In this document: one piece after another, positions 43,512 through 63,818 of the stretch
Layout of the letters: every line of letters begins with the position of its first letter
How positions within the stretch are numbered: position 1 is the stretch's first letter
From: Rhizobium sp. Q54
GTDB taxonomy: Bacteria > Pseudomonadota > Alphaproteobacteria > Rhizobiales > Xanthobacteraceae
NCBI GenBank assembly: GCA_945861265.1
Contig: CAMAUC010000001.1
Location: forward strand, 186,001 to 250,000
Reading direction: 5' to 3'
DNA length: 64,000 nucleotides
Program-made: the position numbers and the translations under genes
Notes under the pieces: generated by a model
The model's database searches: none
What the model saw: the letters and a program-made list of their open reading frames with translations, nothing else
Told to the model about the DNA's origin: nothing

Positions 43512-44201
43512 TCAGCTTTCGGCGATCCGGTAACCGATCCCCGGCTCGGTCAGGATGATGCGCGGGTCGTCGGCGTGCTCTTCGACCTTCTGCCGCAACT
43601 GGCCGACATAAACGCGCAGATACTGGGTGTCCTCGGTATGCGCCGGCCCCCACACCGCGGTGAGGATCTGGCGATGGGTCAGCACGCGGCCGGCGTGCTT
43701 GGACAGGAACGACAGCAGCTCGAATTCCTTGGGCGTCAGCTTCAACTCCGCGCCGGCGCGGGTCGCGCGGTGGCGGACGGCATCCACTTCGAGATTGCCG
43801 ACGCGCAGCACCGGCACTTCCGCCTTGCGCTGCATGCGATGGCGCAACGCCGTGCGCATGCGCGCCAGCAATTCGCCGACATTGAACGGCTTGTTGACGT
43901 AGTCGTCGGCGCCAAGATCGAGGGACTCAATCTTTTCGGTCTCGCGCTCGCGCGCCGACAGAACGATAATCGGCACGTCGGACCACTCGCGGGCGCGCTT
44001 GATGACTTCCTTGCCGTCGCCGTCGGGCAGGCCGAGATCGAGCAGCACGATATCGGGAGACTCGGCGGCGATGCGCTTAGTCGCCTCGGCGACCGTGCCG
44101 GCGCTGACCATCTCATAGCCGTTGGCTTCCAGCGCCGGTTTGAGAAAACGCAGAATGGCCGCTTCGTCATCGACGACCAGAACGCGGGTGTTGGCGGTCA
44201 T
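43512..44201 (-). CDS. kdpE: Two-component response regulator KdpE
   Basis: A 229-residue OmpR/PhoB-type regulator. The receiver domain has the acidic pair Asp11-Asp12 and phospho-acceptor Asp55 in LLDLGLPDGDG. The C-terminal winged helix includes LTPKEFELLSFLSKHAG and ends GIGYRIAES. It activates kdpFABC under potassium limitation after phosphorylation by KdpD. The ATG overlaps the kdpD stop by 4 bases. It is the last gene of the leftward kdp operon. Confidence 0.96.
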   Translation of the reverse strand: MTANTRVLVVDDEAAILRFLKPALEANGYEMVSAGTVAEATKRIAAESPDIVLLDLGLPDGDGKEVIKRAREWSDVPIIVLSARERETEKIESLDLGADDYVNKPFNVGELLARMRTALRHRMQRKAEVPVLRVGNLEVDAVRHRATRAGAELKLTPKEFELLSFLSKHAGRVLTHRQILTAVWGPAHTEDTQYLRVYVGQLRQKVEEHADDPRIILTEPGIGYRIAES

Positions 44202-46867
44202 GCTGGCGTTTCCTCGCGCGGGAAAGTCAAGGCGATACGCGTGCCGGCGCCGCCACGCGGCGGACTCTCGGCGGCGATGGTACCGCCATGCGCCTCCATG
44301 ATCCCCTTGGCAATGGCCAGGCCAAGGCCGGTGCCCTGCCCGCCATCGGCAAGCGAATCCGCCTTGATGAATTTCTCGAACACCTTTGGCAAGGCTTGCG
44401 CGGGAATGCCAGGACCGTCGTCGGCAATGCGCAGCGTTACGTTTTCAGGCGCAATCGCCGCGTCGATTAGCACATTGGTTTGCGGCGGGGTATGCGTGAT
44501 CGCGTTGCCTATGACGTTGCCAATCGCCTGCTCTACCAATGTCGCATCGGCGCGCACCAGCGGCAGATCGGCCGGCAAAGCGACCGCGAATTGCTGCTTT
44601 GCGCCGCGGCGTCGGGCGGCGCTGACGACGCGGTCGACGATCTCGCGCAGATCGATCCAGTCGTGCCGCAGTTCGAGCGCGCCGGCGTCGATACGCGTGA
44701 TCGCGAGCAAATTACGCACCATCTCGTCAAGCTCTTCGGCTTCCTGCTTGATCTGCAGCAGCATGTCCTGTTTCGCCGGAGCGCCTAGCTTGTCGCCGTA
44801 ACTGAGCAGACTGGTCGCGGCCCCGAGAATCGACGACAGCGGCGTGCGAAAATCATGCGAGATCGACGCCAGCAAAGTATTGCGCACGCGCTCGGTTTCG
44901 GTCGCGGTTTTGGCACTGACCATGTCGCGCGCCAGCGAGGCGCGCTCGAGCGCCGCTGCCGCCTGCTCGGACAAGGCATCGAGCAAGGCGCGCGCTTCCG
45001 AATCGAGCGCCCCCGTGCCCTCGGGCTTGGCAACGCCGATGACCCCGAGAGTCTTGTCGCCGATGCGCAGCGGCACGAAGTACCACGGCACAGTCGGCAG
45101 GGTGCCGGTGTCAGCGCCGGCCGGTTCGCCGTGCGTGAATGCCCAGTGCGCCGCCATCATCGGCGCGGCATCGAGCGCATCCTCAGGCGGCCATGCCGCG
45201 GTCATGACCAGATCCCCGCCGCTGTCGAGCAAAACAACGACGCCCCGGCCGAGGCTGGCGTGGATTTCACTGGCCGCGCCTTCGGCGACCGCGTCGAACG
45301 ACGCCAGGCCGGACAGCCGTCTTGTAAACTCAAAAAGCCGCCGCGTCGCCCGCATGCGGGTTGCCGCGATTGTCGCCTGCGCCCGCACCCGGCCGCCGAG
45401 CGCGGAGGTGATGACCGCTACGATCAGGAAAATGACCAGCGCCAGAAGTTCGTAGGGCTCGGCGATCGTGAAGCTGTGCACCGGCTCGATGAAGAAAAAA
45501 TTGTACACAAGAAAAGACAGCGCGGACGCATAGATCGCGGGCCAAATGCCGAAGTTCACCGCCATCAGCACGACACCGACGAGGAACAGCATCGACAAAT
45601 TGGGTATCGGCGTCATCGCGGTGAGCAGTTTGCCGACACCCGCGGCGGCGGCGATCGCCAGTGTCGCATAGAGGAAAGGCAGCGGCGCGAGTGCGAATCC
45701 GGCGCGACGGCGCCGCGGCGGCGGCGCGGCTTCCGAATGCCGCGTCACCAGATGAATGGCAATGTCCTGCGCGCGCCGGGCCAGTTCGTTCGGCAACGAG
45801 CGGCGCAGCAAAACATTGAGGAAGCCGCTCTGCGACCGGCCAATGACGATCTGCGTCACGTTCTCGAATTTGGCGAAGCGCAGCACTTCCTCGGGCAGAT
45901 CGCTACCCGTCAGGGTCTTTGTTTCGCCACCGAGCCTCTCGGCCAGCTTCATGGCCTCGTCGATCCGCGCGCGCGCGCTGTCGTCGAGATGGCCGCCCGG
46001 GCGCTCAACCGTCACGGCGAGCCAGGGGGCGTCCATCAGATCGGCGAGGCGCTTGGCCGTGCGCACCACGGCGGGCGAGTTGGCGTCCGGCCCGATGCAG
46101 GCAAGAATGCGCTCGCCGGCCGCCCACGGCCCTTCGATCGCCTGCGCCTGCATGCGCGACACCAGATCGGCGTCGATGCGCTCGGCGGCGCGCCGCAGCG
46201 CCAGCTCCCGCAACGCTGTCAGGTTCTGCGGCTTGAAGAAGCTCTCGACCGCGCGCGCCGCCGTGTCCTGCACATAGACCTTGCCTTCGGCGAGGCGCTT
46301 GAGCAACTCGTCGGGCGGAAAGTCGACCAGGATGATTTCGTCGGCTTTGTCGAATACCGTATCCGGCACGGTCTCGCGCACGCGCACCTTGGTGATCTTC
46401 AAGACCACATCGTTCAGGCTTTCCAGATGCTGGATGTTGAGCGTGGTCCAGACATCGATGCCGGCGGCGAGCAGCTCGTCGACGTCCTGCCAGCGTTTCG
46501 GGTGGCGGCTGCCAGGTACATTGGTGTGCGCGTATTCATCGACCAGCAGCAGCCCCGGCTTGCGCTTGAGCGCCGCGTCCAGATCGAACTCCTTCATGAT
46601 CTGGTTGCGGTAAACGATCGGCAGGCGCGGCAGTAAGTCGAAGCCCTCTAACTGACGTTCGGTCTCGCGGCGGCCATGTGTCTCGATCAGCCCGGCGACG
46701 ACATCGCGCCCGCCCGCCTTTTCGGTCTGGGCGGCGGCGAGCATGGCGTAGGTCTTGCCTACGCCGGGCGCCGCGCCGAGAAATATCTTGAGCCGCCCGC
46801 GCCCTTCCTTTCGGGCGAGCGCCAGCAGGGCGTCAGGCGAAGCACGTTGCTCGGGATCGAAGGCCAT
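44198..46867 (-). CDS. kdpD: Potassium-responsive sensor histidine kinase KdpD
   Basis: An 889-residue membrane kinase. The N-terminal KdpD domain has Walker A GAAPGVGKT (31-39), followed by a universal-stress-protein domain (around 250-370). A cluster of four membrane helices lies at about 395-495, followed by a GAF-like segment, then HisKA with the phospho-acceptor His671 in SISHDFRTPLSS. The HATPase domain ends in GTGLGLAIAKGI. Length and order match full-length KdpD. It senses potassium/ionic conditions and c-di-AMP in known homologues. It lies 22 bp after kdpC. Confidence 0.96.
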   Translation of the reverse strand: MAFDPEQRASPDALLALARKEGRGRLKIFLGAAPGVGKTYAMLAAAQTEKAGGRDVVAGLIETHGRRETERQLEGFDLLPRLPIVYRNQIMKEFDLDAALKRKPGLLLVDEYAHTNVPGSRHPKRWQDVDELLAAGIDVWTTLNIQHLESLNDVVLKITKVRVRETVPDTVFDKADEIILVDFPPDELLKRLAEGKVYVQDTAARAVESFFKPQNLTALRELALRRAAERIDADLVSRMQAQAIEGPWAAGERILACIGPDANSPAVVRTAKRLADLMDAPWLAVTVERPGGHLDDSARARIDEAMKLAERLGGETKTLTGSDLPEEVLRFAKFENVTQIVIGRSQSGFLNVLLRRSLPNELARRAQDIAIHLVTRHSEAAPPPRRRRAGFALAPLPFLYATLAIAAAAGVGKLLTAMTPIPNLSMLFLVGVVLMAVNFGIWPAIYASALSFLVYNFFFIEPVHSFTIAEPYELLALVIFLIVAVITSALGGRVRAQATIAATRMRATRRLFEFTRRLSGLASFDAVAEGAASEIHASLGRGVVVLLDSGGDLVMTAAWPPEDALDAAPMMAAHWAFTHGEPAGADTGTLPTVPWYFVPLRIGDKTLGVIGVAKPEGTGALDSEARALLDALSEQAAAALERASLARDMVSAKTATETERVRNTLLASISHDFRTPLSSILGAATSLLSYGDKLGAPAKQDMLLQIKQEAEELDEMVRNLLAITRIDAGALELRHDWIDLREIVDRVVSAARRRGAKQQFAVALPADLPLVRADATLVEQAIGNVIGNAITHTPPQTNVLIDAAIAPENVTLRIADDGPGIPAQALPKVFEKFIKADSLADGGQGTGLGLAIAKGIMEAHGGTIAAESPPRGGAGTRIALTFPREETPA

Positions 46868-46889
46868 GCGTCTCCTTTAGACGAACATA

Positions 46890-47492
46890 CTACGACCGCA
46901 GAGCATCCAGCGCGAGGTTGAGTTTGAGGACGTTCACACGCGGTTCGCCCAGCAGGCCGAGAGTGCGCCCTTCAGTTTGCGCCTCGACCAGCGCCCGCAC
47001 ATTTTGATCCGGCAGACCGCGCGCCTTGGCGACACGGGGCACCTGGAACAAAGCCGCCGCCGGCGAGACATCGGGGTCGAGGCCGCTGCCGGAGGCCGTC
47101 ACCAGATCGACCGGCACCGCCGCGTTCGGATTCTTCGCCTTGAGTTTATCGACGTCTTCCTTGAGCCGGTCGGCCAGCGCCTTGCTGGTCGGGCCAAGAT
47201 TGGAGCCCATGGAGTTCGACGCATTGTAAGGCGCGGAGACGGTCTTGGTCGCATCTTTCGGGTCAGGGCCGGTCGTCGCCGACGGGCGGCCGTGGAAATA
47301 CTTGTCGCTCTCGAAGGCCTGGCCGATCAACGCCGAGCCGATCACCTTGCCGTCCTTCTCGATCAGGCTGCCTTGCGCCTGTTTCGGAAAGAGCGCGCCG
47401 GCGATGCCGGTCATGCCCAGCGGATAGACTAGACCCGTGATGAGGGTCAGCAGGACCAGAACGACGATGGCGGGGCGGAGTTCCTTAAGCAT
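46890..47492 (-). CDS. kdpC: K+-transporting ATPase subunit KdpC
   Basis: A 200-residue subunit. A single N-terminal membrane anchor ([20 protein letters not shown]) is followed by the periplasmic domain with [11 protein letters not shown] and [17 protein letters not shown], both KdpC hallmarks. KdpC stabilises the KdpAB complex and raises ATP affinity. It follows kdpB by 12 bp. Confidence 0.96.
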
Positions 47493-47504
47493 GGCAAATT
47501 CTCC

Positions 47505-49577
<2,073 letters not shown>

Positions 49578-49602
49578 TGCCGTAACTCCAATTTAAATCC
49601 GT

Positions 49603-51306
49603 TTAGAACACGGTGCCGGCGAGCATCGCCAGATGCTCGACGATCGGCCCGAGCGCGAGCACGGGGAAGAATGTAAGGCCGCCGACAACCAGGATGACGC
49701 CGACGGTAAGGCCGACGAACAAGCCACCGGTGGTCGGGAACGTGCCGGCGGAGGCAGCGATGCTCTTCTTCTCGACCAGCGAACCGGCAATCGCCATCGC
49801 GGGTACGATCATGAAGAAGCGGCCGACGAACATCGCGATCGCGCCGGTGGTGTTGAAGAACACCGTGTTGGCGGTGATGCCTCCGAAGGCCGAACCGTTA
49901 TTGGCGGTGCTCGAGACGTAAAGGTAGAGCATCTCCGAGAAGCCATGCGGCCCGGAATTGCCAAGTTGCGTCAGCGCCTGCGGGTTGACAGCGGCGACCG
50001 CGGTCCATCCGAGCATCATCAGCGGCATGGCCAGGATGGCGAGCATGGCCATCTTGACTTCCTTGGCCTCGATCTTCTTGCCGACATATTCCGGCGTCCG
50101 GCCGACCATCAGTCCGGCGATGAAGATCGTAATGACAACGAACAGCAGCATGCCGTAAAGGCCGGCGCCGACACCACCGATGACGATCTCGCCGAGCTGC
50201 ATGTTGATCAGCGGGATCATGCCGCCGAGCGCGGTGAACGAGTCATGCATGGCGTTGACCGCGCCGCACGACGCCGCCGTGGTGATAACCGCGAACAGAG
50301 CCGAAGCGACAATTCCGAAGCGAACTTCCTTGCCCTCCATGTTGCCGCCGGTGAGGCCGAGCGCGTTGAGCGTGGCGGTGCCGTTGGCTTCCGCCCAGTA
50401 GCAGAACGCCACGCCGGCAATGAACAGGATGCCCATCACAGAAAGAATCGCCCAGCCCTGGCGCTGGTTGCCGACCATGCGGCCGAACACATTGGTCAGC
50501 GCGGCGCCGAGCACGAAGATCGACAGCATCTGGACGAAGTTCGACAGCGCGGTCGGGTTCTCGAACGGATGCGCGGCATTGGCGTTGAAGAAGCCGCCGC
50601 CGTTGGTGCCGAGCATCTTGATGGCCACCTGCGAGGCCACGGGACCGACCGCGATGGTCTGCTTGGCGCCTTCCAGCGTGGTGGCCTCGACGTAAGCACC
50701 CAAAGTCTGCGGCATACCCTGCCAGACCAGGAAGATCGTGTAGACGACGCAAATCGGCAGCAGGATATAGAGCGTGCAACGGGTGATATCGACCCAGAAA
50801 TTGCCAACTGTCTTGGCCGACGCGCGGGCGAAACCGCGAATCAGCGCCACCGCCAGTACAATGCCGGTCGCCGCCGACAGGAAGTTCTGGTGCGTCAGGC
50901 CGAGCATCTGCGTGAGGTACGACATCGTGCCCTCCCCGCCGTAGTTCTGCCAGTTGGTGTTGGTGATGAAGCTGACCGCCGTATTGAAGGCGAGATCCGG
51001 CGCGACGTTGGCTTGCTCGGCCGGGTTCAACGGCAGCGAGGCTTGAACGCGCATCAAGATATAGAGAATGAGGAAGCCGCCGACATGGAACAGCAGCATG
51101 GCGACCGTGTAGGTCAGCCAGTGCTGTTCGCGTTTGTCGTCGACGCCGCCGGTCCAATAAATGGCGGTTTCGATGGGTCGCAAAACCGGCGTCAGGAATG
51201 TCCACTCGCCGGCGAAAACGCGCGTCATGAAGCCGCCGACGAGCGGCGTCAGCGCGACGATGATCGCGCAGAAAAGGATGATTTGAACCCAGCCGATAAC
51301 GGTCAT
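49603..51306 (-). CDS. kdpA: K+-transporting ATPase subunit KdpA
   Basis: A 567-residue channel-like subunit with about ten membrane helices. Selectivity-filter-like repeats are visible, including [14 protein letters not shown] and [19 protein letters not shown], which are typical of KdpA. It selects and conducts K+ in the KdpFABC complex of the inner membrane. It follows kdpF by 43 bp. Confidence 0.97.
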
Positions 51307-52540: not shown

Positions 52541-52713
52541 AATGCCGCCACGTCCGCCGGACGGATGCTCGCTGTATGTGACCGACCTGAGGAGCCTTTT
52601 CGACATTCATCTGTGAATGCCTTGTCCACGATCTAGCTGTAGCGGCCGTCACCACTGGCGCAGCATTCAGATGGCCCGTAGGATTGTCCCCTTTTTGCAA
52701 GGGATATCGCCAC

Positions 52714-53661
52714 ATGGGCGCTCACCATTTATTGTCGGCGGACGCCGGCACCGTGCATCGCGGCACTTTCGATGCCGCCTTTCCCGCCGTCCTGACGATG
52801 AATTCCGGCGACACGGTCGAGATAACGTCCCTGTCGGGCGACAGGGCCGATCTGCCGGCAGCCGGCTCCGGCTTCACCGTTTCCGCCGCGCATCGCAATG
52901 TGCTCGACCAAGTGGCGCCGGGGCTCGGTCCGCATTTCATGACCGGGCCGATTGCCGTCAAAGGCGCGATGCCGGGCGACGAATTGATCGTCGATATCCT
53001 CGCCGTTGAACTGGCCTTCGATTGGGGCTGGAACCTGATCCGCGCCGGCAAGGGCACCCTGCCGGATGAGTTTCCCAACGAACGCCGCATGCATATCGGC
53101 ATCGACCGGCAGCGCCGGGTCGTGACGATGCCGTGGGGGCTAGAACTTCCAGCCGCGCCGTTTTTCGGCATTGTTGGCGTCGCCCCGCCGCCGGGCGACG
53201 GGCCGCAGACCTCGGTGATCCCGCGCGCCTGGGGCGGCAATATCGATTGCAAACATCTCGGCGCCGGCGCGCGGCTGCATCTGCCGGTATTCAACGAAGG
53301 CGCATTGCTGTCGGCGGGCGATGGGCACGCCGCGCAAGGTGACGGCGAAGTCTGCCTCACCGCTGTCGAGACCGGTTTGCGCGGCACCTTGCGTCTCACA
53401 ATCGCCAAGGGCACCGACATTCGCGGCCCTTGGGCGGAGACGCCGACGCATATCATCGCCATGGCGTTCGACCCCGATCTCGACGTCGCGGCGCAATCGG
53501 CCGTCCGCAATATGGTGGGGCTGATCGAGCGTATCGGCGGATTGGCCGCCGCCGACGCCTATACATTATGCAGTGTCGCCGCCGACGTACATGTGACGCA
53601 GCTCGTCAATGTCCACAAAGGCGCCCATGTGATGCTGGCAAAATCGGCGCTGGGGATTTAG
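52714..53661 (+). CDS. Acetamidase/formamidase family protein
   Basis: A 315-residue FmdA/AmdA-family amidase. Conserved blocks are GHAAQGDGEVCLTAVET in the C-terminal half, VIPRAWGGNIDCKHLGAGARLHLPV, and NVHKGAHVMLAKSALG near the C-terminus. Such enzymes release ammonia from formamide or short amides. ATG at 52714 is preferred over TTG at 52684. It converges with the cyanurate-hydrolase-like operon; two long palindromes fill the gap. It may mop up an amide product of that operon, which is inference. Confidence 0.9.
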   Translation: MGAHHLLSADAGTVHRGTFDAAFPAVLTMNSGDTVEITSLSGDRADLPAAGSGFTVSAAHRNVLDQVAPGLGPHFMTGPIAVKGAMPGDELIVDILAVELAFDWGWNLIRAGKGTLPDEFPNERRMHIGIDRQRRVVTMPWGLELPAAPFFGIVGVAPPPGDGPQTSVIPRAWGGNIDCKHLGAGARLHLPVFNEGALLSAGDGHAAQGDGEVCLTAVETGLRGTLRLTIAKGTDIRGPWAETPTHIIAMAFDPDLDVAAQSAVRNMVGLIERIGGLAAADAYTLCSVAADVHVTQLVNVHKGAHVMLAKSALGI

Positions 53662-53740
53662 CTAGTGGAGCGGATTTGGCGTTCGCTACCAATTTGCCGC
53701 GCATATCTTATGCGAACGTCAAATCCAAAGCTCCACTAGC
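53661..53740. repeat. Long intergenic palindrome, first of a pair
   Basis: Ends GCTAGTGGAGC and GCTCCACTAGC are perfectly complementary. Inside, GGATTTGGCGTTCGC pairs with GCGAACGTCAAATCC with a single mismatch. The element spans 80 bp starting at the stop codon of the amidase. It could fold as a bidirectional terminator hairpin or be a small mobile palindrome. Confidence 0.8.
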
Positions 53741-53752
53741 AACAATAATTTG

Positions 53753-53828
53753 CCAGTGGTCCTTTGATTCTAACATTCGCAAAAGTGGCTCCGCAGACGG
53801 GATGCGAATGTTAGAATCGGACCACTAG
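53753..53828. repeat. Long intergenic palindrome, second of a pair
   Basis: Left arm AGTGGTCC then GATTCTAACATTCGCA pairs with right arm TGCGAATGTTAGAATC then GGACCACT; only a TTT bulge interrupts it. Ends (CCAGTGG.., ..CCACTAG) resemble those of the neighbour 12 bp away, so the two belong to one family. The right arm contains the stop codon of the leftward cyanurate-hydrolase-like gene. Confidence 0.82.
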
Positions 53829-54916
53829 CCGCGGTCGACGATCAGCGCCACCGGCCCGCCGCCATCCGGCCCCTGATGCTCGGCGCCGCCGGACACATAT
53901 ATTTCGGCGTGCCCCACCAGCCCCGCCAAGGCGCCACAGACAAAGGCGCGCGCATGCCGCGTCGACGATATATCGCTGTCGTCGAGCATGGTGTGGCGAT
54001 TGCCGCGCAGGCGGCCATCATGGCTCGCTTCGGCCTTGCCGAGCACAGCGACCAGCCGTTGCCGGTCGGCAGCGCTGAGCTGCCCGGACGAGGAAAGCCC
54101 AAGCCGCGACAACGCCGCGCGCACCGGCTCGATATCGATCCCGTCCGCCATGACCGCATGATCGATGGCGAGCGGCCCCGACCATTGCGCCGACATGCCG
54201 AGCACGACGATCTCATGATTGACCAGTTCGATGCCCGCCGACGTGCTGGCGCGACCGGACCACAGATTCCAGTTGACGGCGATATCGGCATCGCCGACGA
54301 CCGCCGCGTCGATTTCACCGAGCGCCACGGCGGCGCCGAGCGCGCTCGCCGCCCGCGACAGGCCCATCGATTTCAAGGTATCGCGCGTCCCGACCATGGC
54401 ACCGCGGGCATCGGCGTCGGCAATGCGCTGCGCCGTCAGGAGCGGACACTTGATCTGGACGAAGTGGACGTCGCCGGTATCGGTCAATCCCGCGTCGCTC
54501 ATGGCCTCGCGCACGCCAGCGGCGACCTGTTGCACCTGCCCCACCCGGCCGAGCTGCTCGAACGGCAGCGAGGCTGTATGCGCGCGACCGATGGCGAGCG
54601 CCGGCGACACACCGCCGTCTCCCGGCGCACGCTCGAACACGACCCAATGCGGCGCCATCGCGCCTTCGGTGCCGCCCGACATCACCAGGCAGATGCGATC
54701 GGCGCTATCCAACGGCAAGTGACGGCGAAACAGCGCGCTCAGGCTCGTTGTCGCCAGACCGCGGCTGAAATCGTTGACCAGACCGTTGCCCTCGGTCTTG
54801 CCGAAAACGGCAATCACGCCGCTGGGCTCGATGCGTCCGGCGGCAATCGCGGCTTCTATGCCGCTGACATCATCCGGCGATCGGGCGGCGATACGATGCA
54901 CTTTGGCGACAGGCAC
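53825..54916 (-). CDS. Ring-opening amidohydrolase, cyanuric acid hydrolase/barbiturase family
   Basis: A 363-residue enzyme of the AtzD/TrzD/barbiturase family. All three Ser-Lys pairs of its threefold active site are visible: Lys40 (FGKTEGNG) with Ser80 (VMSGGTEG), Lys156 (VQIKCPLL) with Ser226 (RASTSAG), Lys294 with Ser342 (VSGGAEHQGPDGGG). It should hydrolyse cyanuric acid to carboxybiuret or barbituric acid to ureidomalonate; sequence alone does not separate them. It starts with GTG at 54916, 3 bp after the permease, and ends an operon with its own importer. No biuret hydrolase or ureidomalonase was seen here. Confidence 0.92.
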   Translation of the reverse strand: MPVAKVHRIAARSPDDVSGIEAAIAAGRIEPSGVIAVFGKTEGNGLVNDFSRGLATTSLSALFRRHLPLDSADRICLVMSGGTEGAMAPHWVVFERAPGDGGVSPALAIGRAHTASLPFEQLGRVGQVQQVAAGVREAMSDAGLTDTGDVHFVQIKCPLLTAQRIADADARGAMVGTRDTLKSMGLSRAASALGAAVALGEIDAAVVGDADIAVNWNLWSGRASTSAGIELVNHEIVVLGMSAQWSGPLAIDHAVMADGIDIEPVRAALSRLGLSSSGQLSAADRQRLVAVLGKAEASHDGRLRGNRHTMLDDSDISSTRHARAFVCGALAGLVGHAEIYVSGGAEHQGPDGGGPVALIVDRG

Positions 54917-54919
54917 AAC

Positions 54920-55693
54920 TCAACCCATCGCAAATTCGTCTTTGCGATGCGCCCATCCGGTAATTTTCGATTCGATCAAAGAGAATACCGCATAGAGCGC
55001 GACGCCGAGGATGGCGAGAATGATCAAACCGGCGAACACCAGGGGCACATCGAAATTCGACGAAGCGATCATCATCACGTTGCCGATGCCTCGGTTGGAG
55101 GCGACGGTTTCCGAAATGACGGTGCCGACAAAGGCCAAGGTCACCGCGACTTTCAACGAGGCGAAGAAAAACGGCATGGTGCGCGGCAGGCCGACATTCC
55201 AGAGAATGTCGAATTTAGTGGCGCGCAATGCCCGCATCACGTCTTCAAGCTCGGGCTCGGTCGTGGCCAGACCGGTGGCGACGTTCACGACAATCGGAAA
55301 AATGCACATGATCATCGCCGTCAGGACGGCAGGCACGGTGCCGGAGCCAAACCACAGCACAAAAATTGGCACTACCGCGACCTTGGGGATTGACGCAAAG
55401 CCGACCAGCAGCGGATAGGCAACGTCATAGGCAAGCCGCGACGAGCCGATCAGCACGCCGAGCGCGATGCCGATGAAAATGCCGAATCCGAATCCGACAA
55501 GCGTCGTATAGAGCGTCTGCAACGTATGCGGCCACAGCGCCGGCCCGCGCTGGATCAAAGTCACGATGATCTGGCTCGGCTTGGGGACAATGATGTCACT
55601 GACATTGAACAGCCAGCACAGCGCTTCCCACACCACGAAGAAGCCGACAATGAGAACGGCGGACCAGACTTTCCGGCGGGCTTGCGGGCTCAT
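54920..55693 (-). CDS. NitT/TauT-type ABC transporter permease, second system
   Basis: A 257-residue membrane protein with about six spans and the coupling loop EDVMRALRATKFDILWNVGLP, ahead of FFASLKVAVTLAFVGTVISE; SsuC/RutG-unrelated, SsuC/ThiX type. ATG overlaps the ATPase stop by one base (TAATG). Together with the SBP at 58872 and ATPase at 55693 it forms a complete importer for the operon's substrate. Confidence 0.92.
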   Translation of the reverse strand: MSPQARRKVWSAVLIVGFFVVWEALCWLFNVSDIIVPKPSQIIVTLIQRGPALWPHTLQTLYTTLVGFGFGIFIGIALGVLIGSSRLAYDVAYPLLVGFASIPKVAVVPIFVLWFGSGTVPAVLTAMIMCIFPIVVNVATGLATTEPELEDVMRALRATKFDILWNVGLPRTMPFFFASLKVAVTLAFVGTVISETVASNRGIGNVMMIASSNFDVPLVFAGLIILAILGVALYAVFSLIESKITGWAHRKDEFAMG

Positions 55694-56526
55694 TACACTG
55701 TCTCCTTTACCGGGCGTTGCGACACGATCAGTTCGCGCAAGCGCTGCGTCATTGAAACGAAGGTCGGCGTGTAGGACATGTCGATGGTGCGCGGCCTCGG
55801 AAACGGCACAGCGGCATCGTCGACGATCTGACCTGGCCGCGTCCGCATGACGCAGATGCGGGTAGCGAGATAACCAGCCTCCTTGAGATCGTGGGTGACC
55901 AGCAGCACCGTCGGCTTCAGCTTCATCCACAATTCCTGCATGACCGCCCACAATTCCTCGCGCGTGAACTGGTCGAGCGCGCCGAACGGCTCGTCGAGCA
56001 GCAGCAATTGCGGTTCGTGGATCAGCGCGCGGCACAACGAGGCACGCTGCAGCATGCCGCCGGACAATTGCCAAGGATGCTTGTCGCCGAAATTGGCGAG
56101 ACCGACTTCCTTCAGCAGCGCGTCGGCACGGTCGCGAAACTCGGTCTTTTTCTTGGCTCCGTATTCCTGCCGGAACGGCGGCACGATCTTGAGCGGCATC
56201 ATGACGTTGTCGCGCACCGTGAGCCACGGCAGCATGGTCGGATTCTGGAACGCCATACCGACGCGAATCGGCGTGGCGCCGACCTCGCGGCCGGCGACAT
56301 AGACATAGCCTTCCGAGGCCTTTATCAGCCCGGTGACCAGCTTGAGGATCGTCGACTTGCCGCAGCCGGACGGACCGACCAGCGCGACGAAGTCACCCTG
56401 GTTGACGCGCAAGTTGGTCAGGCCAAGCGCGGTCACCTGCTTGTCGCCGCGCCCATAAGTGAGCGTGACGTTCTCCAGCTCAATAAAGGTCTCTTCCGTC
56501 CTCGGCAGTTCTGTCACGGTCGTCAT
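55693..56526 (-). CDS. NitT/TauT-type ABC transporter ATP-binding protein, second system
   Basis: A 277-residue ATPase: Walker A GPSGCGKS, signature LSGGMLQRASLCRAL, Walker B LLLLDEPFGALD, switch VTHDLKEA. The ATG at 56526 overlaps the upstream amidohydrolase stop by 4 bases. A longer in-frame reading extends into that gene and was rejected. Confidence 0.93.
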   Translation of the reverse strand: MTTVTELPRTEETFIELENVTLTYGRGDKQVTALGLTNLRVNQGDFVALVGPSGCGKSTILKLVTGLIKASEGYVYVAGREVGATPIRVGMAFQNPTMLPWLTVRDNVMMPLKIVPPFRQEYGAKKKTEFRDRADALLKEVGLANFGDKHPWQLSGGMLQRASLCRALIHEPQLLLLDEPFGALDQFTREELWAVMQELWMKLKPTVLLVTHDLKEAGYLATRICVMRTRPGQIVDDAAVPFPRPRTIDMSYTPTFVSMTQRLRELIVSQRPVKETV

Positions 56527-58004
56527 GCAACCTGTTCCCTTCGCCCGGCAGAGCGTTGAGCGGTGATCGCCTGCATCGTATGTTCTGCATTGCGGACTTG
56601 CGGTGTCGGCATCTGCTGGATCGTGTGCACCGACCGGCCCCAGCCTTTGGTGTCCATCAGCGTGCGGTCCTTCATGACGAAGCGGCCGCGTACAATCGTG
56701 TGGATCGGCAGCCCCTTCACCTTGCGGCCGTCCCAGGGCGAAATCTTCGACCGCGACTGGATGTCGGCATCGCGGATCGTGTGCTCGCGGTCGAGATCGA
56801 CAATCGCGATGTCGGCGTCGGACCCCGGCAGCAGCGCGCCTTTGCGAGGATAAAGCCCCCAAATGCGCGCCGGGTTATAGGCGCTCATGCGCACATAGTC
56901 GGAAATCGACAGGCGGCCGCCATTCACCTCAGTCAGCATCAGTGGCATCTGCGTCTCGACGCCGGGAAAGCCGCAATCGACGGTCCAGATGTCGTTGCGG
57001 GTTTTCTCTTCCGGCGCATGCGGCGCGTGATCGGTGGCGATAACGTCGATGGCGCCGTCGAGCAGCGCCTGCCAGATCGGCGCCTGATTGCGGCTCTCGC
57101 GCACCGGCGGATTGACAGCGATGATGCCGGGCACCCGTGTGTAGTCGTCGGTCGACAGCATCAGGTAATGCGGGCAGGTCTCGCCGGTGATATCGACACC
57201 CCGCGCCTTCGCCTCGCGCAGTGGCCGCAACTCGTCGGCGCTCGAAATATGCAAAACATGAATGCGGGCGCCGGTCCACTCGGCCAAAATCGCGGCGCGG
57301 CTGACCGCTTCGACCGCGACCACCGGCGGCCGAGCCGCCAGATGCGCGAACTGGTCGTGAATGCCGGCAGCCATCAGCCGCTTCTGCCGGCGCTCCATGA
57401 TTTCGTTGTTCTCGGCATGCAGCGAAACGCGCTTGCCGCTCGCCGCCGCTACCTCGAAGAGCTCCAAAGTCGCACCAGTGTCGGGCGAGGCGATCTTGCC
57501 GAATGTGTTGCCCATGTAGAGCTTGAAACCGATGATGCCGCCATCGATCAGTTCGGGCACCGTCGCGAGGTTCTCATCGCCGAGCAGGCCGTACAGGCCA
57601 AAATCGACATGCGCCCTGGCGGCGGCAATCGCGTGCTTGGCGGCGAGGATGTCGCCATTCGCCGTCGGCGGAATCGTATTCGGCATGTCGAACACGCAGG
57701 TGACTCCGCCGAAAGCCGCCGCCGCTGTGCCGCTTTCCCAGTCTTCCTTGTGCGGATAGCCGGGATCGCGGAAATGCACATGGTCGTCGATGGCTCCTGG
57801 CAGGATATGCATGCCGGTAACGTCGAAGACTTCCTTGGCCGGCGGCATCGCGCTGTCGGCGCCGATGGCGAGGATCTTGCCATCCTTGATGGCGATCGAG
57901 GCTTCAATGACGGCATCCGGCGTCACCACCATGCCGTTGCGGATCACCAGGTCAGCCGTCATCGCGGTCATTGGAGGATTTTTGGCGTTCATCGCGTCAC
58001 TCAC
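56523..58004 (-). CDS. Dihydropyrimidinase/allantoinase-type cyclic amidohydrolase
   Basis: A 493-residue cytoplasmic metal-dependent hydrolase. Every ligand of the binuclear Zn site can be seen: His75 and His77 (DDHVHFRDPG), carbamylated Lys161 (GFKLYMGN), His196 (SLHAENN), His252 (HVLHISS) and Asp325 (TDHAPHA). The family opens cyclic ureides such as dihydropyrimidines, hydantoins and allantoin. It starts with GTG in a 4-base overlap with the SDR stop; ATG at 57992 is an alternative. A second ring-opening enzyme in the same operon as the barbiturase-like protein is the interesting point. Confidence 0.9.
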   Translation of the reverse strand: MSDAMNAKNPPMTAMTADLVIRNGMVVTPDAVIEASIAIKDGKILAIGADSAMPPAKEVFDVTGMHILPGAIDDHVHFRDPGYPHKEDWESGTAAAAFGGVTCVFDMPNTIPPTANGDILAAKHAIAAARAHVDFGLYGLLGDENLATVPELIDGGIIGFKLYMGNTFGKIASPDTGATLELFEVAAASGKRVSLHAENNEIMERRQKRLMAAGIHDQFAHLAARPPVVAVEAVSRAAILAEWTGARIHVLHISSADELRPLREAKARGVDITGETCPHYLMLSTDDYTRVPGIIAVNPPVRESRNQAPIWQALLDGAIDVIATDHAPHAPEEKTRNDIWTVDCGFPGVETQMPLMLTEVNGGRLSISDYVRMSAYNPARIWGLYPRKGALLPGSDADIAIVDLDREHTIRDADIQSRSKISPWDGRKVKGLPIHTIVRGRFVMKDRTLMDTKGWGRSVHTIQQMPTPQVRNAEHTMQAITAQRSAGRREQVA

Positions 58005-58795
58005 AGCATCGCCCAGCCGCCATCGACCGGCAGGTCGACGCCCGTTAACTGGCGCGAGACGTCGCTCGCCAGAAACAGGCAGGCATTGGCGACGTCGGCA
58101 TCCTCCGTCACGCGCTTGAGCGCGTAGTCGGCGGCGTGACGTTCCATCGCTTCCTCAAGCGTGATGCCGAGACGCTTGGCCATGTCGGCGCAAACCTTGT
58201 CGCGGAAGCGCGGCCCGTCGACCATGCCAGGAGCTACGTTGTTGACGTTGATATTGTACTGGCCGACCTCGAGCGCGAAGCTCTTGGTGATGCCGCGCAG
58301 GCCCCATTTCGACGCCGAATAGGCCATACGCCCGGCCCGCCCGCGCATGCCGAATGTGCCGCCGACATTGACGACCTTGCCATAGCGCTGCGCGATCATG
58401 GTCGGCAAAACGCTGCGCATCGTGTGAAAGCAGCCGTTCATGTTAAGCGTGACGATCTCGTCGAATTCCTCGGGCGTTGTCTCAACGCCGGTCTTGCCGA
58501 CGGGGCCGGAGCCGCCGGCGACATTGACCAGAATGTCGATGCGGTCGCCGAAGGCTTGCTTGGTCTTTTGTGCCGCGATGTCGCATTGAACGGGATCGGT
58601 AAGATCGCAGGCGACGACGATGGCCTGCGCACCCATCTTCTTGACTTCAGCGGCCACCGGTTCAATCGCCGCGACGTCGCGGCCAAGGAGAGCCAATTTC
58701 GCGCCTTCGGCGGCGAAAGCTGTGGTAATCGCAGCGCCCATTCCCTTGGCCGGGCCGGTGATCATCGCGACCTTGCCTTGGAGCTTCAGTTCCAT
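58001..58795 (-). CDS. SDR-family oxidoreductase with Gly in place of catalytic Ser
   Basis: A 264-residue short-chain dehydrogenase. The cofactor motif TGPAKGMG (13-20) and catalytic Tyr159 and Lys163 (YSASK) are present. The Ser normally 13 residues before the Tyr is Gly146 (VVNVGGTFG), with Thr147 next to it. The enzyme may still reduce or oxidise a substrate by using Thr147, or be altered. It is the second gene of the operon, after SBP and a hairpin. Reduction of a pyrimidine or oxidation of a side-chain alcohol are possible roles, both inferred. Confidence 0.87.
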   Translation of the reverse strand: MELKLQGKVAMITGPAKGMGAAITTAFAAEGAKLALLGRDVAAIEPVAAEVKKMGAQAIVVACDLTDPVQCDIAAQKTKQAFGDRIDILVNVAGGSGPVGKTGVETTPEEFDEIVTLNMNGCFHTMRSVLPTMIAQRYGKVVNVGGTFGMRGRAGRMAYSASKWGLRGITKSFALEVGQYNINVNNVAPGMVDGPRFRDKVCADMAKRLGITLEEAMERHAADYALKRVTEDADVANACLFLASDVSRQLTGVDLPVDGGWAML

Positions 58796-58823
58796 CGCCG
58801 CACCTTGAGAATAATCAGGAAGG

Positions 58824-58856
58824 CGGCCGCTCCTCCTCTAAGAAGAGGAACGGCCG
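58824..58856. terminator. Hairpin between SBP and SDR genes
   Basis: Inner arms TCCTCT (58834-58839) and AGAGGA (58844-58849) enclose loop AAGA. Outer arms CGGCCG pair at 58824-58829 and 58851-58856. It lies 15 bp past the SBP stop in the leftward operon, with no clear U-tract; probable attenuator or mRNA 3'-end protector. Confidence 0.6.
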
Positions 58857-58871
58857 AGTTTGCGGAGCGCC

Positions 58872-59912
58872 CTAGAAGGACTTGTGCGGCAGATCGGCAG
58901 CCGGCGGCAGGAACGAACCGTTCCAGACCTCGCTGACGGCCGGGGTCCGCGGCAGCGACGACGCTTCTACGATAATGCCGATCGACTTCTTCAGCCGTGC
59001 TTCGTCAACCGCACCGAGACCGATGGTCTTGATCTCGGGATGGTTCATCTCGTCGGCAACGGTGGCGTCGTAACGCTCACGCTCAAGCTTGACGTTGATC
59101 AGCGGTTCGCGCTTGGCGACCGCGGCGACCGAGGCATCCGGATCCTTGATCGAGTCCTGCATGCCCTTGTTGAGCGCGCGCAGGAAGCCCTTGATGACTT
59201 CGGGCTTTTCCGTGGTCATCTTCTTCGGCACGATGATGACGTTCGAGTAGAGATCCATGCCGGCATCCGAGTACTTGATGTAGCGGATCTTGTCCTCCTC
59301 GATCTTGGCCAGCTTGGCCGAGAAGCGGATGGTGTTCATGTAGCCGAACACGCCGTCGACCTGACCCTGCATCAACATGTTCTCGCGCAGGTTCGGCTGC
59401 ATGTTGGAGAGTTTGACGCCGGTGCAGTCGATCTTTGCCTGCTTGCAGAAGGCCGGGAACAGCTTGAGCGCACCGTCATTAGCCGGCCCGCCGATCGACT
59501 TGCCTTCGAGATCCTTGGCTGTCTTGATCGGGCTATCCGCCTTCACTGCGATGACGAAGGGAGGCTGATTGTACATGACATAAACCGCAACCGGCGCTTC
59601 ATCCGGCTTCTTGGCCGCGAGCTCGATCAGCGCATTCATGTCGCCGAAGCCGACGTCATAGGTGCCATTGGCGACCAGCGCCGGCACGCCGCCGGAGCCG
59701 TTGCCTTGATCGAGTTGCACCTCGATACCCTCGGCTTTGAAATAACCACGGTCGTCGGCAAGGAAGAACATCCCCTGCGGACCCTGGTATTTCCAGTTCA
59801 GCACGACTTTAAGCTTGGTTTGGGCCGCCGCGGGCGTTGCCGACGCGAGCGGACCGGCAATGCCGATCGCGGCCGCGGCGGCAATCAGCAAGGAACGGGA
59901 AGAAATGGTCAT
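58872..59912 (-). CDS. NitT/TauT-type ABC transporter substrate-binding protein (NMT1-like), second system
   Basis: A 346-residue periplasmic protein of the NMT1/THI5 class. The signal peptide ends at AAAQ near residue 31, and the mature protein begins TKLKVVLNWKYQGPQGMFF. The NWKYQGPQG motif resembles pyrimidine-precursor (HMP, RutG-unrelated) binders of this fold. AGGAG precedes the ATG at 59912. It is first in the six-gene operon and divergent from a LysR gene. A pyrimidine- or triazine-like ligand is plausible from fold and neighbours. Confidence 0.91.
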   Translation of the reverse strand: MTISSRSLLIAAAAAIGIAGPLASATPAAAQTKLKVVLNWKYQGPQGMFFLADDRGYFKAEGIEVQLDQGNGSGGVPALVANGTYDVGFGDMNALIELAAKKPDEAPVAVYVMYNQPPFVIAVKADSPIKTAKDLEGKSIGGPANDGALKLFPAFCKQAKIDCTGVKLSNMQPNLRENMLMQGQVDGVFGYMNTIRFSAKLAKIEEDKIRYIKYSDAGMDLYSNVIIVPKKMTTEKPEVIKGFLRALNKGMQDSIKDPDASVAAVAKREPLINVKLERERYDATVADEMNHPEIKTIGLGAVDEARLKKSIGIIVEASSLPRTPAVSEVWNGSFLPPAADLPHKSF

Positions 59913-60146
59913 TGGTGTACTCCTGTTGAGCATCTGAAGCATTTGCGCGCTCGTCCAGCCCGGCCTGCCGTCCGCCCGCGGTGCATGTCGGCGTCGTCGA
60001 AAGGATTTCGTCTCGGCGCGACCATGAATTTGTCCATGCAATTGTGGTGCCGGAAAAGACTAGCCCGGAGGAGCGTTGCCATCTGCCGCTGATTTTTTGC
60101 TAGACTGGTGCCGAAAAGGCATCACTCGCATTCCGATGGCGGACCG

Positions 60147-61049
60147 ATGAAACACCTGCGCATCCTGGATTATGTCGACGCGGTCGCGCGCGCCCGCTCG
60201 ATCCGCAAAGCCGCCGAGCAGCTCAACGTCACCGCCTCGGCCGTCAACCGGCGCATCGCCGACCTCGAGGAAGAACTGGGCGCGCTGCTGTTCGAGCGCC
60301 TGCCGCGCGGCGTCCGACTGACGGCGGCCGGCGAGGTTTTCGTCAATTATTTGCGCAAGCAAGGCGGCGAAGCCGAGCGGATGAAATCGCAGATCGAGGA
60401 CCTCAAGGGTCTGCGCCGCGGCACAGTCCGCCTCGCCTGCAGTCAGGCGCTGGCGCTCGACTTTCTGCCGAACGCCGTCGCTGAATTCCGCAAGACACAT
60501 CCGAAAGTCGAGTTCGACATTAAAGTGGTCGACCATGAATATGCGATGGCGGCTCTGTCCGCCTTCGAAGTCGACCTGGTATTGGTATTTCGCCCGCCAT
60601 TCCTGCCTAACTTTCATCCGCTGATGACAATCGAACAGCGCCTGGTCGCGGTAATGGCGAAGAACCACCCGCTCGCCAAGCTGCGCAAATTGCGACTGCG
60701 CGATTGCGCGGCGCATGCCGTCGCATTGCCGGAACGGTCGATTGGCGGACGCCAACTACTGGACCAGGTCGCCGCCCGCACCGGGCTTACTTTCAATATC
60801 GCCGCCGAATCCAATTCGTTTGAAATGCTGCGCGGTCTGGCCATTCATGCCGGACTGCTGTCGTTTCAGATCAAGATCGGCACCTTGAAGGACGGCAACA
60901 GGTTGGGCCTGGTGGCGCGCGAGATCGACGACCGCGACGTGCCAAGCGCCAAGCTCGTCTTCGGCCAATTGCGCGAGCGCAATCTGCCGGTGGCGACCGC
61001 CGTGTTCGCCGAACACATCACGCGCCGCCTGCGAGCAATGCTGCCATAG
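60147..61049 (+). CDS. LysR family transcriptional regulator
   Basis: A 300-residue LysR regulator. The N-terminal helix-turn-helix is RSIRKAAEQLNVTASAVNRRI (about residues 15-35, shown in part as AAEQLNVTASAVNRRI), followed by LFERLPRGVRLTAAGEVF. The C-terminal domain is substrate-binding-like. ATG at 60147 is preferred over GTG at 60108. It is divergent from the six-gene operon (234-bp gap) and precedes the URC genes by 227 bp, so it may control either. A TTG-N6-CAA dyad near 60030-60041 could be its site. Confidence 0.9.
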   Translation: MKHLRILDYVDAVARARSIRKAAEQLNVTASAVNRRIADLEEELGALLFERLPRGVRLTAAGEVFVNYLRKQGGEAERMKSQIEDLKGLRRGTVRLACSQALALDFLPNAVAEFRKTHPKVEFDIKVVDHEYAMAALSAFEVDLVLVFRPPFLPNFHPLMTIEQRLVAVMAKNHPLAKLRKLRLRDCAAHAVALPERSIGGRQLLDQVAARTGLTFNIAAESNSFEMLRGLAIHAGLLSFQIKIGTLKDGNRLGLVAREIDDRDVPSAKLVFGQLRERNLPVATAVFAEHITRRLRAMLP

Positions 61050-62582: not shown

Positions 62583-63818
62583 ATGAATCCCGAAGCGGCC
62601 GCGGCATTTTCCCTTCTCAGCGCCGAGGCCGTCCGCACGCGCGCGCAACAGATGCTTTTGCTCGGGCTAAGCGATAAACTACCGAACTTCCGCGTCGATC
62701 TCGCTCAACTCGACGCCACGGCCGATCGCGTGATTGCCATCACAAGGCAGAACTATCCCTCGCTCGATATTCCGTTTCATTCGCGCTGGCGGCATTTTGT
62801 CGTTGATGGCCATGATCGCTTCGCGGCAATCGCCAAGGCAGCCGCCTTCCCGGATGCCGCCGCCCGCGCCCGCGCCGAATTCGACCTCGCTATCGTCAGC
62901 GTCTTCCTCGATGCCGGTGCCGGCCCGCAGTGGCGTTATGCCGATCCGGAAAGTGGACGGCGCATCGGCCGTTCGGAAGGACTGGCGCTGGCCAGCCTCG
63001 ACATGTTCATGCGTGGTGCGTTTTCCGCCGATCCATCGCGCCCATTGCGTGTCGACGCCGCGGTGCTGGCGCATTTAAGCGCCGATCAGTTGGCGCAGGG
63101 CTTTCAGGTGACAGCGGACAATCCGCTGGTCGGTCTCGAAGGCCGCGCCGCTCTGCTGCGCCGGCTCGGAGCATTGATTGCCGAAAGCCCCGGAGTGTTT
63201 GCCCAGAATGACAGCGCGCGGCCCGGCGGGCTGTTCGATCATCTCGCCGCGCTCGCCGAAGATAATACTATTGCCGCGCCAGACATCCTGGCCGAACTGC
63301 TGCACGAACTCGGGCCGATCTGGCCATCGCGCATTTCACTCGGTGGCATTCCGCTCGGCGATTGCTGGCGACATGCATCGCTGCAGACGTCCGACGCCAC
63401 AAACGGGCTCGTCCCGTTGCACAAACTGTCGCAGTGGCTGGCCTATTCGCTCATCGAGCCGCTGCAACGCGGCGGCGTTACAGTCGCCGACATCGATGGC
63501 CTTACCGGCCTTGCCGAATACCGCAACGGCGGATTATTCGTCGATGCGGGTGTGTTGAACGTGCGCGATCCCGGCCAACTTGCTCGCTCGCACGATGCCG
63601 GCTCCGAACTCGTGGTCGAATGGCGCGCGCTGACCGTTGCCTTGCTCGATCGCCTCGCCGCAACCGTCCGCGAAAGATTGGACATGGACGCCGTCGCCTT
63701 GCCGCTGGCAAAAATTCTTGAAGGCGGCACCTGGGCGGCCGGCCGCGCCATCGCCCTTGAGAAGCGGCCGGACGGCACGCCACCGATAAACGTCGTCAGC
63801 GACGGCACGGTTTTTTAG
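62583..63818 (+). CDS. urc4: DUF1688 family protein, URC4-like
   Basis: A 411-residue DUF1688 protein. Typical blocks are LNFRVDLAQLDATADRV-like text (here LPNFRVDLAQLDATAD), FHSRWRHFVVDGHDR, WRYADPESGRRIGRSEGLALAS and LTGLAEYRNGGLFVDAGVL near the C-terminus. In yeast Urc4p is required for uracil degradation; its reaction is not established. The start at 62583 (MNPEAAAAF) is chosen over an upstream in-frame start inside urc1. It is followed by upp after 9 bp with a TAGGAG ribosome site. Confidence 0.92.
   Translation: MNPEAAAAFSLLSAEAVRTRAQQMLLLGLSDKLPNFRVDLAQLDATADRVIAITRQNYPSLDIPFHSRWRHFVVDGHDRFAAIAKAAAFPDAAARARAEFDLAIVSVFLDAGAGPQWRYADPESGRRIGRSEGLALASLDMFMRGAFSADPSRPLRVDAAVLAHLSADQLAQGFQVTADNPLVGLEGRAALLRRLGALIAESPGVFAQNDSARPGGLFDHLAALAEDNTIAAPDILAELLHELGPIWPSRISLGGIPLGDCWRHASLQTSDATNGLVPLHKLSQWLAYSLIEPLQRGGVTVADIDGLTGLAEYRNGGLFVDAGVLNVRDPGQLARSHDAGSELVVEWRALTVALLDRLAATVRERLDMDAVALPLAKILEGGTWAAGRAIALEKRPDGTPPINVVSDGTVF

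Follow-up and report, generated by a model that had tools for sequence, protein, structure and literature searches.

A predicted cyanuric acid hydrolase beside a dihydroorotase-like amidohydrolase: a probable shortened copy of a putative nitrogen-scavenging operon of Alphaproteobacteria

A 64,000-nucleotide stretch of Rhizobium sp. Q54 (hereafter the window; positions 186,001 to 250,000 of CAMAUC010000001.1, contig C1 in a draft genome of 133 contigs and 3.75 Mb) holds an operon in which a predicted cyanuric acid hydrolase, AtzD, is joined to a second cyclic amidohydrolase (AHase), a short-chain dehydrogenase/reductase (SDR) and an ATP-binding cassette (ABC) importer. Six genes on the minus strand make up the operon: a substrate-binding protein of the NMT1/THI5 type, SBP1 (58872-59912; PF09084), an SDR-family protein without the canonical catalytic Ser (58001-58795; PF00106), AHase, of the binuclear metal type (56523-58004; PF01979), an ATPase of the SsuB/TauB type (55693-56526; PF00005), a permease of the SsuC/TauC type (54920-55693; PF00528), and AtzD (53825-54916; PF09663, 482.8 bits). 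Reading of open reading frames (ORFs) and junctions agreed with the first-pass annotation in coordinates and in the tight packing of the genes. SDR and AHase overlap in GTGA, AHase and the ATPase in ATGA, the ATPase and permease in TAATG, and 3 bp separate the permease from AtzD (54917-54919). The GTGA overlap rests on a GTG start of AHase at 58004, and a codon-usage script favoured an ATG at 57971. The same gene order was found again in several genera and is therefore not a matter of chance. From comparison with these relatives, we judge the window operon to be a shortened copy of a widespread alphaproteobacterial operon predicted to scavenge nitrogen.

The gene at the end of the operon had been placed in the AtzD/barbiturase family, and within this correctly named family it resolves to AtzD. 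It reaches 550.1 bits against the NCBIfam cyanuric-acid-amidohydrolase equivalog NF052395 (cut-off 360), and the closest solved relative is the cyanuric acid amidohydrolase 4nq3, which we take to be the Azorhizobium enzyme whose published account is cited below, given that residue numbers agree. All three Ser-Lys pairs listed in the first-pass annotation are present, together with three arginines (K40, S80, K156, S226, K294, S342, R52, R188 and R323). Such dyads and active-site arginines are described for the Azorhizobium enzyme in PMC4051656, where the position of R188 is given as Gln in barbiturases; PMC3758960 gives Asn at this position. The latter also defines a five-position signature, R-T-R-G-G in cyanuric acid hydrolases and N-H-K-V-S/A in barbiturase. 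RTRGG is found in the window AtzD, in all 31 operon-type rows and in 90 of the 101 distinct AtzD rows, the other 11 reading NHKVD. The barbiturase signature is absent from the window AtzD, and a barbiturase identity was ruled out on these five positions. At the sequence level, there is good support for assigning it to the cyanuric acid hydrolases.

All 11 NHKVD rows come from the same genus, and they include a second AtzD-family gene of the same genome. This paralog (G000:C1:99095-100165; L031:9081-10175) is situated on the same contig outside the window and adjoins HyuA/HyuB-like (by eye), amidase-like and ABC transporter genes. Because of its signature and these neighbours it appears barbiturase-like, and its locus is a candidate barbiturase cluster. 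AtzD-family genes of any kind were detected in 22 of 35 same-genus relatives and in 2 of 24 other genomes sampled from the order.

The second hydrolase carries all six metal ligands, as had been reported (H75, H77, K161, H196, H252 and D325), while its designation as a dihydropyrimidinase-type enzyme did not hold. At the substrate-binding positions it has R79, N109 and H329, as in dihydroorotase. According to Table 2 of PMC8267945, the corresponding R1475, N1505 and H1690 of dihydroorotase (human numbering) are substrate-binding, and Ala mutants of ScDHOase are inactive. Among 69 fetched homologs, 61 rows were at least 47% identical to the window protein, and the metal ligands and the three substrate-binding residues are intact in 60 of them; L256 differs by Ser in place of N109. 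The score for the dihydroorotase subfamily TIGR00857 is 335.8 (cut-off 279.05), while AHase stays below the cut-offs of the dihydroorotase equivalog PRK09060 (402.8 vs 482) and of the dihydropyrimidinase model TIGR02033 (335.7 vs 393.25). In the dihydropyrimidinase that the genome does encode (TIGR02033, 555.5 bits), the positions of R79, N109 and H329 are occupied by A, M and F, and the identity of AHase as a dihydropyrimidinase was set back by both the TIGR02033 cut-off and the active-site residues.

AHase thus shares with dihydroorotase (pyrC; huDHOase, ScDHOase) the complete set of metal ligands and the R, N and H residues, but differs from it in lying in a catabolic-looking operon and in falling under the PRK09060 cut-off. 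Pyrimidine synthesis can probably do without AHase, since a separate gene at C49 encodes a dihydroorotase (PRK09060, 764.2 bits). The alignment of AHase with L191, the genome's pyrC-like ORF, was poor, and L191 was left out as a reference. The predicted structure of AHase, built from 18 sequences, has a predicted local distance difference test (pLDDT) score of 80.9. That AHase hydrolyses a carboxylated cyclic ring is a reasonable prediction, moderately supported by these residues.

The classical SDR tetrad is Asn-Ser-Tyr-Lys. In alignments that also included solved SDRs, the window protein keeps Asn118 and the motif YSASK, and Asn and Tyr-x3-Lys are kept across the rows. The position of the catalytic Ser is occupied by Gly (NVGGTFG) in all 52 rows of at least 60% identity, the window counted, and the tetrad is accordingly incomplete. 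For the predicted model of SBP1 (pLDDT 89.6), the 21 top-ranked Foldseek matches are chains of 4nmy (thiamine-bound), ThiY (3ix1) and Thi5, with taurine/sulfonate binders ranking lower, and a profile search agreed with this placing. SBP1 shares fold and sequence profile with these pyrimidine-binding proteins at only 15-23% identity, and we infer the type of its ligand from this resemblance.

The 3-bp junction between permease and AtzD is the site at which relatives carry more. Besides the window's operon, 12 AtzD operons of the same genus were compared, and ten of them hold about 2.5 kb there, composed of a second substrate-binding protein, SBP2 (41-46% identical to SBP1), and TRZ15, an amidohydrolase of roughly 480 amino acids. 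L040 keeps SBP2 without TRZ15, and L044 has neither and shows the same 3-bp gap as the window. The best model for TRZ15 is N-ethylammeline chlorohydrolase with 143.7 bits, far below its cut-off, which characterizes it as a distant TRZ/ATZ-type enzyme. Its presumed metal residues are conserved in 36 of 36 rows. No close homolog of TRZ15 was found in the window's genome (best 28% identity). Since the sisters of the window and L044 in the AtzD tree (L051 and L032) keep both genes, loss, in one event or two, is the simplest reading, and SBP2 and TRZ15 would most simply be missing from the window by deletion. The first-pass annotation had remarked that no biuret partner is visible; indeed, neither BiuH nor AtzE was found among the operon and flanking genes, and the gap it pointed to is partly explained by the loss of genes that relatives hold at this junction.

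How the remaining genes belong together was assessed in 62 AHase-ortholog loci, a set from which nine duplicates and two paralogs (L190 and L098) had been removed. Neighbours were scored by script labels within 12 kb of AHase; some loci terminate at contig ends, so that absences are upper bounds, and AtzD is over-represented, many of the loci having been collected through it. SDR accompanies AHase in 54 loci, substrate-binding proteins in 44 (two or more in 27), the ATPase and the permease in 41 each, LysR in 37, AtzD in 33, TRZ15 in 32, the acetamidase/formamidase-family gene AmdA in 20, URC1 in 14 and URC4 in 13. Less frequent are an isochorismatase-like hydrolase and a 2-oxoglutarate (2OG) oxygenase (10 each), DUF3830 (8) and a molybdenum-hydroxylase large subunit (6, one of them below 30% identity). 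SDR and AHase are the core of the system, and AtzD is optional. When loci were drawn by AHase alone, AtzD was nearby in six of 32 (L230, L233, L234, L253, L255 and L261), and orthologous operons without it (L189, L220 and L222) ruled out AtzD as the defining gene of the operon. Similarity searches found AHase in 25 of 397 genomes of the order at E 1e-130, and in 6 of 385 genomes of the class and 4 of 398 of the phylum at E 1e-120; these counts include the genome under study, and the three samples overlap.

The gene set is spread across several orders. It is complete on plasmid pSR-2 of Skermanella rosea, where it runs in one direction behind a divergent LysR gene in the order SBP, SDR, AHase, ATPase, permease, SBP2, amidohydrolase, AtzD, acetamidase/formamidase and DUF3830. 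Plasmid p4 of Azospirillum argentinense carries the pSR-2 genes without AtzD. In the window, AmdA (52684-53661, plus strand; PF03069; its start perhaps at 52732 by the codon model) is convergent to the operon, as first described, but it is more than the mere neighbour it was taken for. Its position in line behind AtzD in Skermanella, and the recurrence of the set on p4, identify AmdA as a member of the system.

Several AHase loci differ in their companions. In loci of other families (L231, L235, L237, L239, L254 and L259), AHase occurs with a 2OG-Fe(II) oxygenase, a second serine-less SDR and, by eye, a pyroglutamyl-peptidase-like protein, and without AtzD; L231 has a Gfo/Idh dehydrogenase in addition. 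In loci of this kind the enzyme perhaps serves another pathway. In L233, L234, L238, L253 and L257, of which L233, L234 and L253 also possess AtzD, the large subunit of a CoxL/XdhA-like molybdenum hydroxylase is encoded near AHase and is a possible ring-hydroxylating partner. L253 has SDR, the isochorismatase-like hydrolase, AHase and AtzD in one operon, next to which lies a gene 32% identical to the molybdenum-hydroxylase large subunit, preceded by two smaller ORFs. The corresponding label in L070, where AHase is split over two ORFs, was below 30% identity and was not used. Rhodoplanes-type operons are headed by an isochorismatase-like gene; a role as biuret hydrolase was considered for it and set aside on two members with scores below the cut-offs (L058, 132.2 for RutB with a cut-off of 377.95 and 113.7 for BiuH with a cut-off of 370; L222, 82.9 for BiuH).

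In a maximum-likelihood tree of 101 AtzD rows, in which L253 forms a long branch of unsure placement, the operon context has to change 10 times, and well-supported branches make at least 6 of these changes unavoidable. Skermanella-type rows L240 and L255 group with the Rhizobium type and not with the Pseudolabrys type. AtzD has evidently joined or left the operon context several times, and this number of changes suggests repeated coupling. Such coupling of AtzD to a dihydroorotase-like hydrolase, an atypical SDR, an aminohydrolase and a pyrimidine-type importer would name partners that the short copy in the window hides.

Known cyanuric acid systems are organized differently. The Rhizobium leguminosarum AtzD-BiuH cluster (PMC5806882) resembles the window in having an AtzD with RTRGG (58-59% identical to the window AtzD) and an importer alongside. 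There, however, AtzD is flanked by BiuH and by another kind of ABC importer, by eye of the nucleoside type, and related loci include an allophanate-hydrolase-like gene and no SDR or AHase ortholog. The atzDGEHF operon of Pseudomonas sp. ADP (PMC6219798) also uses a cyanuric acid hydrolase as ring opener. In contrast to that operon, neither the amidase-family AtzE/AtzF nor AtzH was found next to the window AtzD, atzG not having been searched for. Their likes are encoded elsewhere in the genome: an AtzE-like amidase and an AtzH-like gene at C37, and an allophanate hydrolase (AtzF) at G000:C119 with 792.6 bits (cut-off 511.05). The claim that the locus is an undescribed conserved operon uniting an AtzD-type enzyme, a cyclic amidohydrolase, an SDR and an importer is supported, and no published description of such an operon was found in the open-licence literature searched, a body outside which most subscription papers lie.

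On balance, we lean towards a catabolic operon whose purpose is to obtain nitrogen from small N-heterocycles. The ThiY-like SBP1 would capture a pyrimidine-, triazine- or cyclic-ureide-like compound, to be imported by the SsuBC-type transporter. The SDR-fold protein and AHase may act as a pair on one substrate, AHase hydrolysing a cyclic amide at its binuclear metal site while R79, N109 and H329 hold the carboxylate. AtzD would open cyanuric acid, and the resulting carboxybiuret/biuret would be broken down to ammonia through a putative biuret step and the allophanate hydrolase encoded elsewhere; a small amide product could be the substrate of AmdA. Where the operon is more complete, the TRZ/ATZ-type aminohydrolase, with its own SBP2 and sharing the permease, probably deaminates an amino-heterocycle into the pathway. 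We infer that AtzD and AHase work on one route, and not on two that share a transporter. A bolder proposal, which we hold to be rather doubtful, is that SDR, the dihydroorotase-like hydrolase and AtzD form one natural, pre-industrial pathway. Cyanuric acid, or a triazine close to it, would then either originate inside the cell or enter it along with a carboxylated ring derived from oxidised purines or pyrimidines. If true, it would provide a native role for cyanuric acid hydrolases and new reactions for a serine-less SDR and a catabolic dihydroorotase-like enzyme.

Several observations weigh against the scavenging route as outlined. With the Ser missing, the reaction of the SDR is uncertain. 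AtzD is absent within 12 kb from 29 of the 62 loci and may thus serve a separate route, and the context changes on its tree may be losses as well as gains. No biuret hydrolase exceeds the cut-off in the genome, the best candidate (C5:96111-96734) reaching 273.8 against 370. AHase itself narrowly passes the allantoinase model TIGR03178 AllB (369.4 vs 357.85), and by sequence as well as by fold the solved proteins closest to it are hydantoinase and allantoinase, with L-hydantoinase 1gkr first by sequence. These similarities, the annotation of orthologs as allantoinase AllB in some records and the 29 loci lacking AtzD would all suit an allantoin- or hydantoin-type operon, with AHase as allantoinase or hydantoinase and AtzD as a loosely attached passenger. 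We regard this as unlikely in view of the dihydroorotase R/N/H set in 60 of 61 AHase rows, the TIGR02033 cut-off that is not reached, and the N and S that 3hm7, the sole allantoinase compared, has at the R and H positions.

Quite unlikely, too, is an s-triazine operon in which TRZ15 deaminates ammeline/ammelide-type amino-triazines to cyanuric acid for AtzD to open, the other genes being transport or accessory functions. TRZ15 adjoins AtzD in L032 and L105 and lies a few kb off in L087 and L103, four different gene settings, and its distant TRZ/ATZ-type character and presumed metal residues fit such a role; yet it scores far under the cut-offs of the listed models and is absent from the window, SDR and AHase would be left unexplained, and the gene set spans several orders. 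Salvage or catabolism of the thiamine pyrimidine (hydroxymethylpyrimidine, HMP), with SBP1 as a ThiY-like importer of HMP or formylaminopyrimidine (FAMP), would account for the Foldseek and profile placing of SBP1. It is improbable, considering the low identity of those matches, the unsuitability of cyanuric acid chemistry to a 2-methylpyrimidine, and the genes around the operon, none of which was recognised as a thiamine gene. Finally, the URC1-like and URC4-like genes in 14 and 13 of the 62 loci could suggest an oxidative uracil route with AtzD as a barbiturase beside URC uracil genes. This is highly improbable, as AtzD reads RTRGG and not N-H-K-V-S/A, retains the R188 that is Gln or Asn in barbiturases by the two accounts cited above (PMC4051656 and PMC3758960, respectively), and the barbiturase-like NHKVD paralog is located elsewhere in the genome.

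Upstream of SBP1, a divergent LysR-type gene (60108-61049, plus strand; PF00126/PF03466; its start perhaps at 60147 by the codon model) is likely the regulator of the operon. Beyond it lie genes with PF12471 (61277-62533) and DUF1688 (62583-63818), on which the first-pass annotation was silent and which we take to be URC1-like and URC4-like uracil catabolism genes. They run on into L183 and a uracil phosphoribosyltransferase, forming a URC-type uracil cluster.

Within the operon, the hairpin reported between SBP1 and SDR was recovered at 58824-58856 on the minus strand (15-bp stem, 3-nt loop). Its 76-nt fold has -36.2 kcal/mol (z -3.9), and none of 200 shuffles was equally stable. A weaker terminator-like match within it (58836-58819, tail CTGATTATTC) was returned by a terminator scan that gave 12 such sites in 10 kb, compared with 8.7 +/- 3.6 in shuffles. 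Partial termination may occur at the hairpin. No sigma-70-type promoter was found by the same scan.

Downstream of AmdA, a kdp-like potassium transporter operon (44198-51306) was recognised by eye and from gene lengths. Between AmdA and AtzD, a 167-bp repeat (53662-53828), likewise not mentioned in the first-pass annotation, consists of two hairpins and is bounded by CTAGTGG and CCACTAG, the AtzD stop codon falling in its last CTAG. In L044 and L051, by contrast, AmdA and AtzD overlap by 4 bp. Genome-wide, the repeat is represented by 7 near-full copies of at least 89% identity, this one counted, and 1 partial copy.

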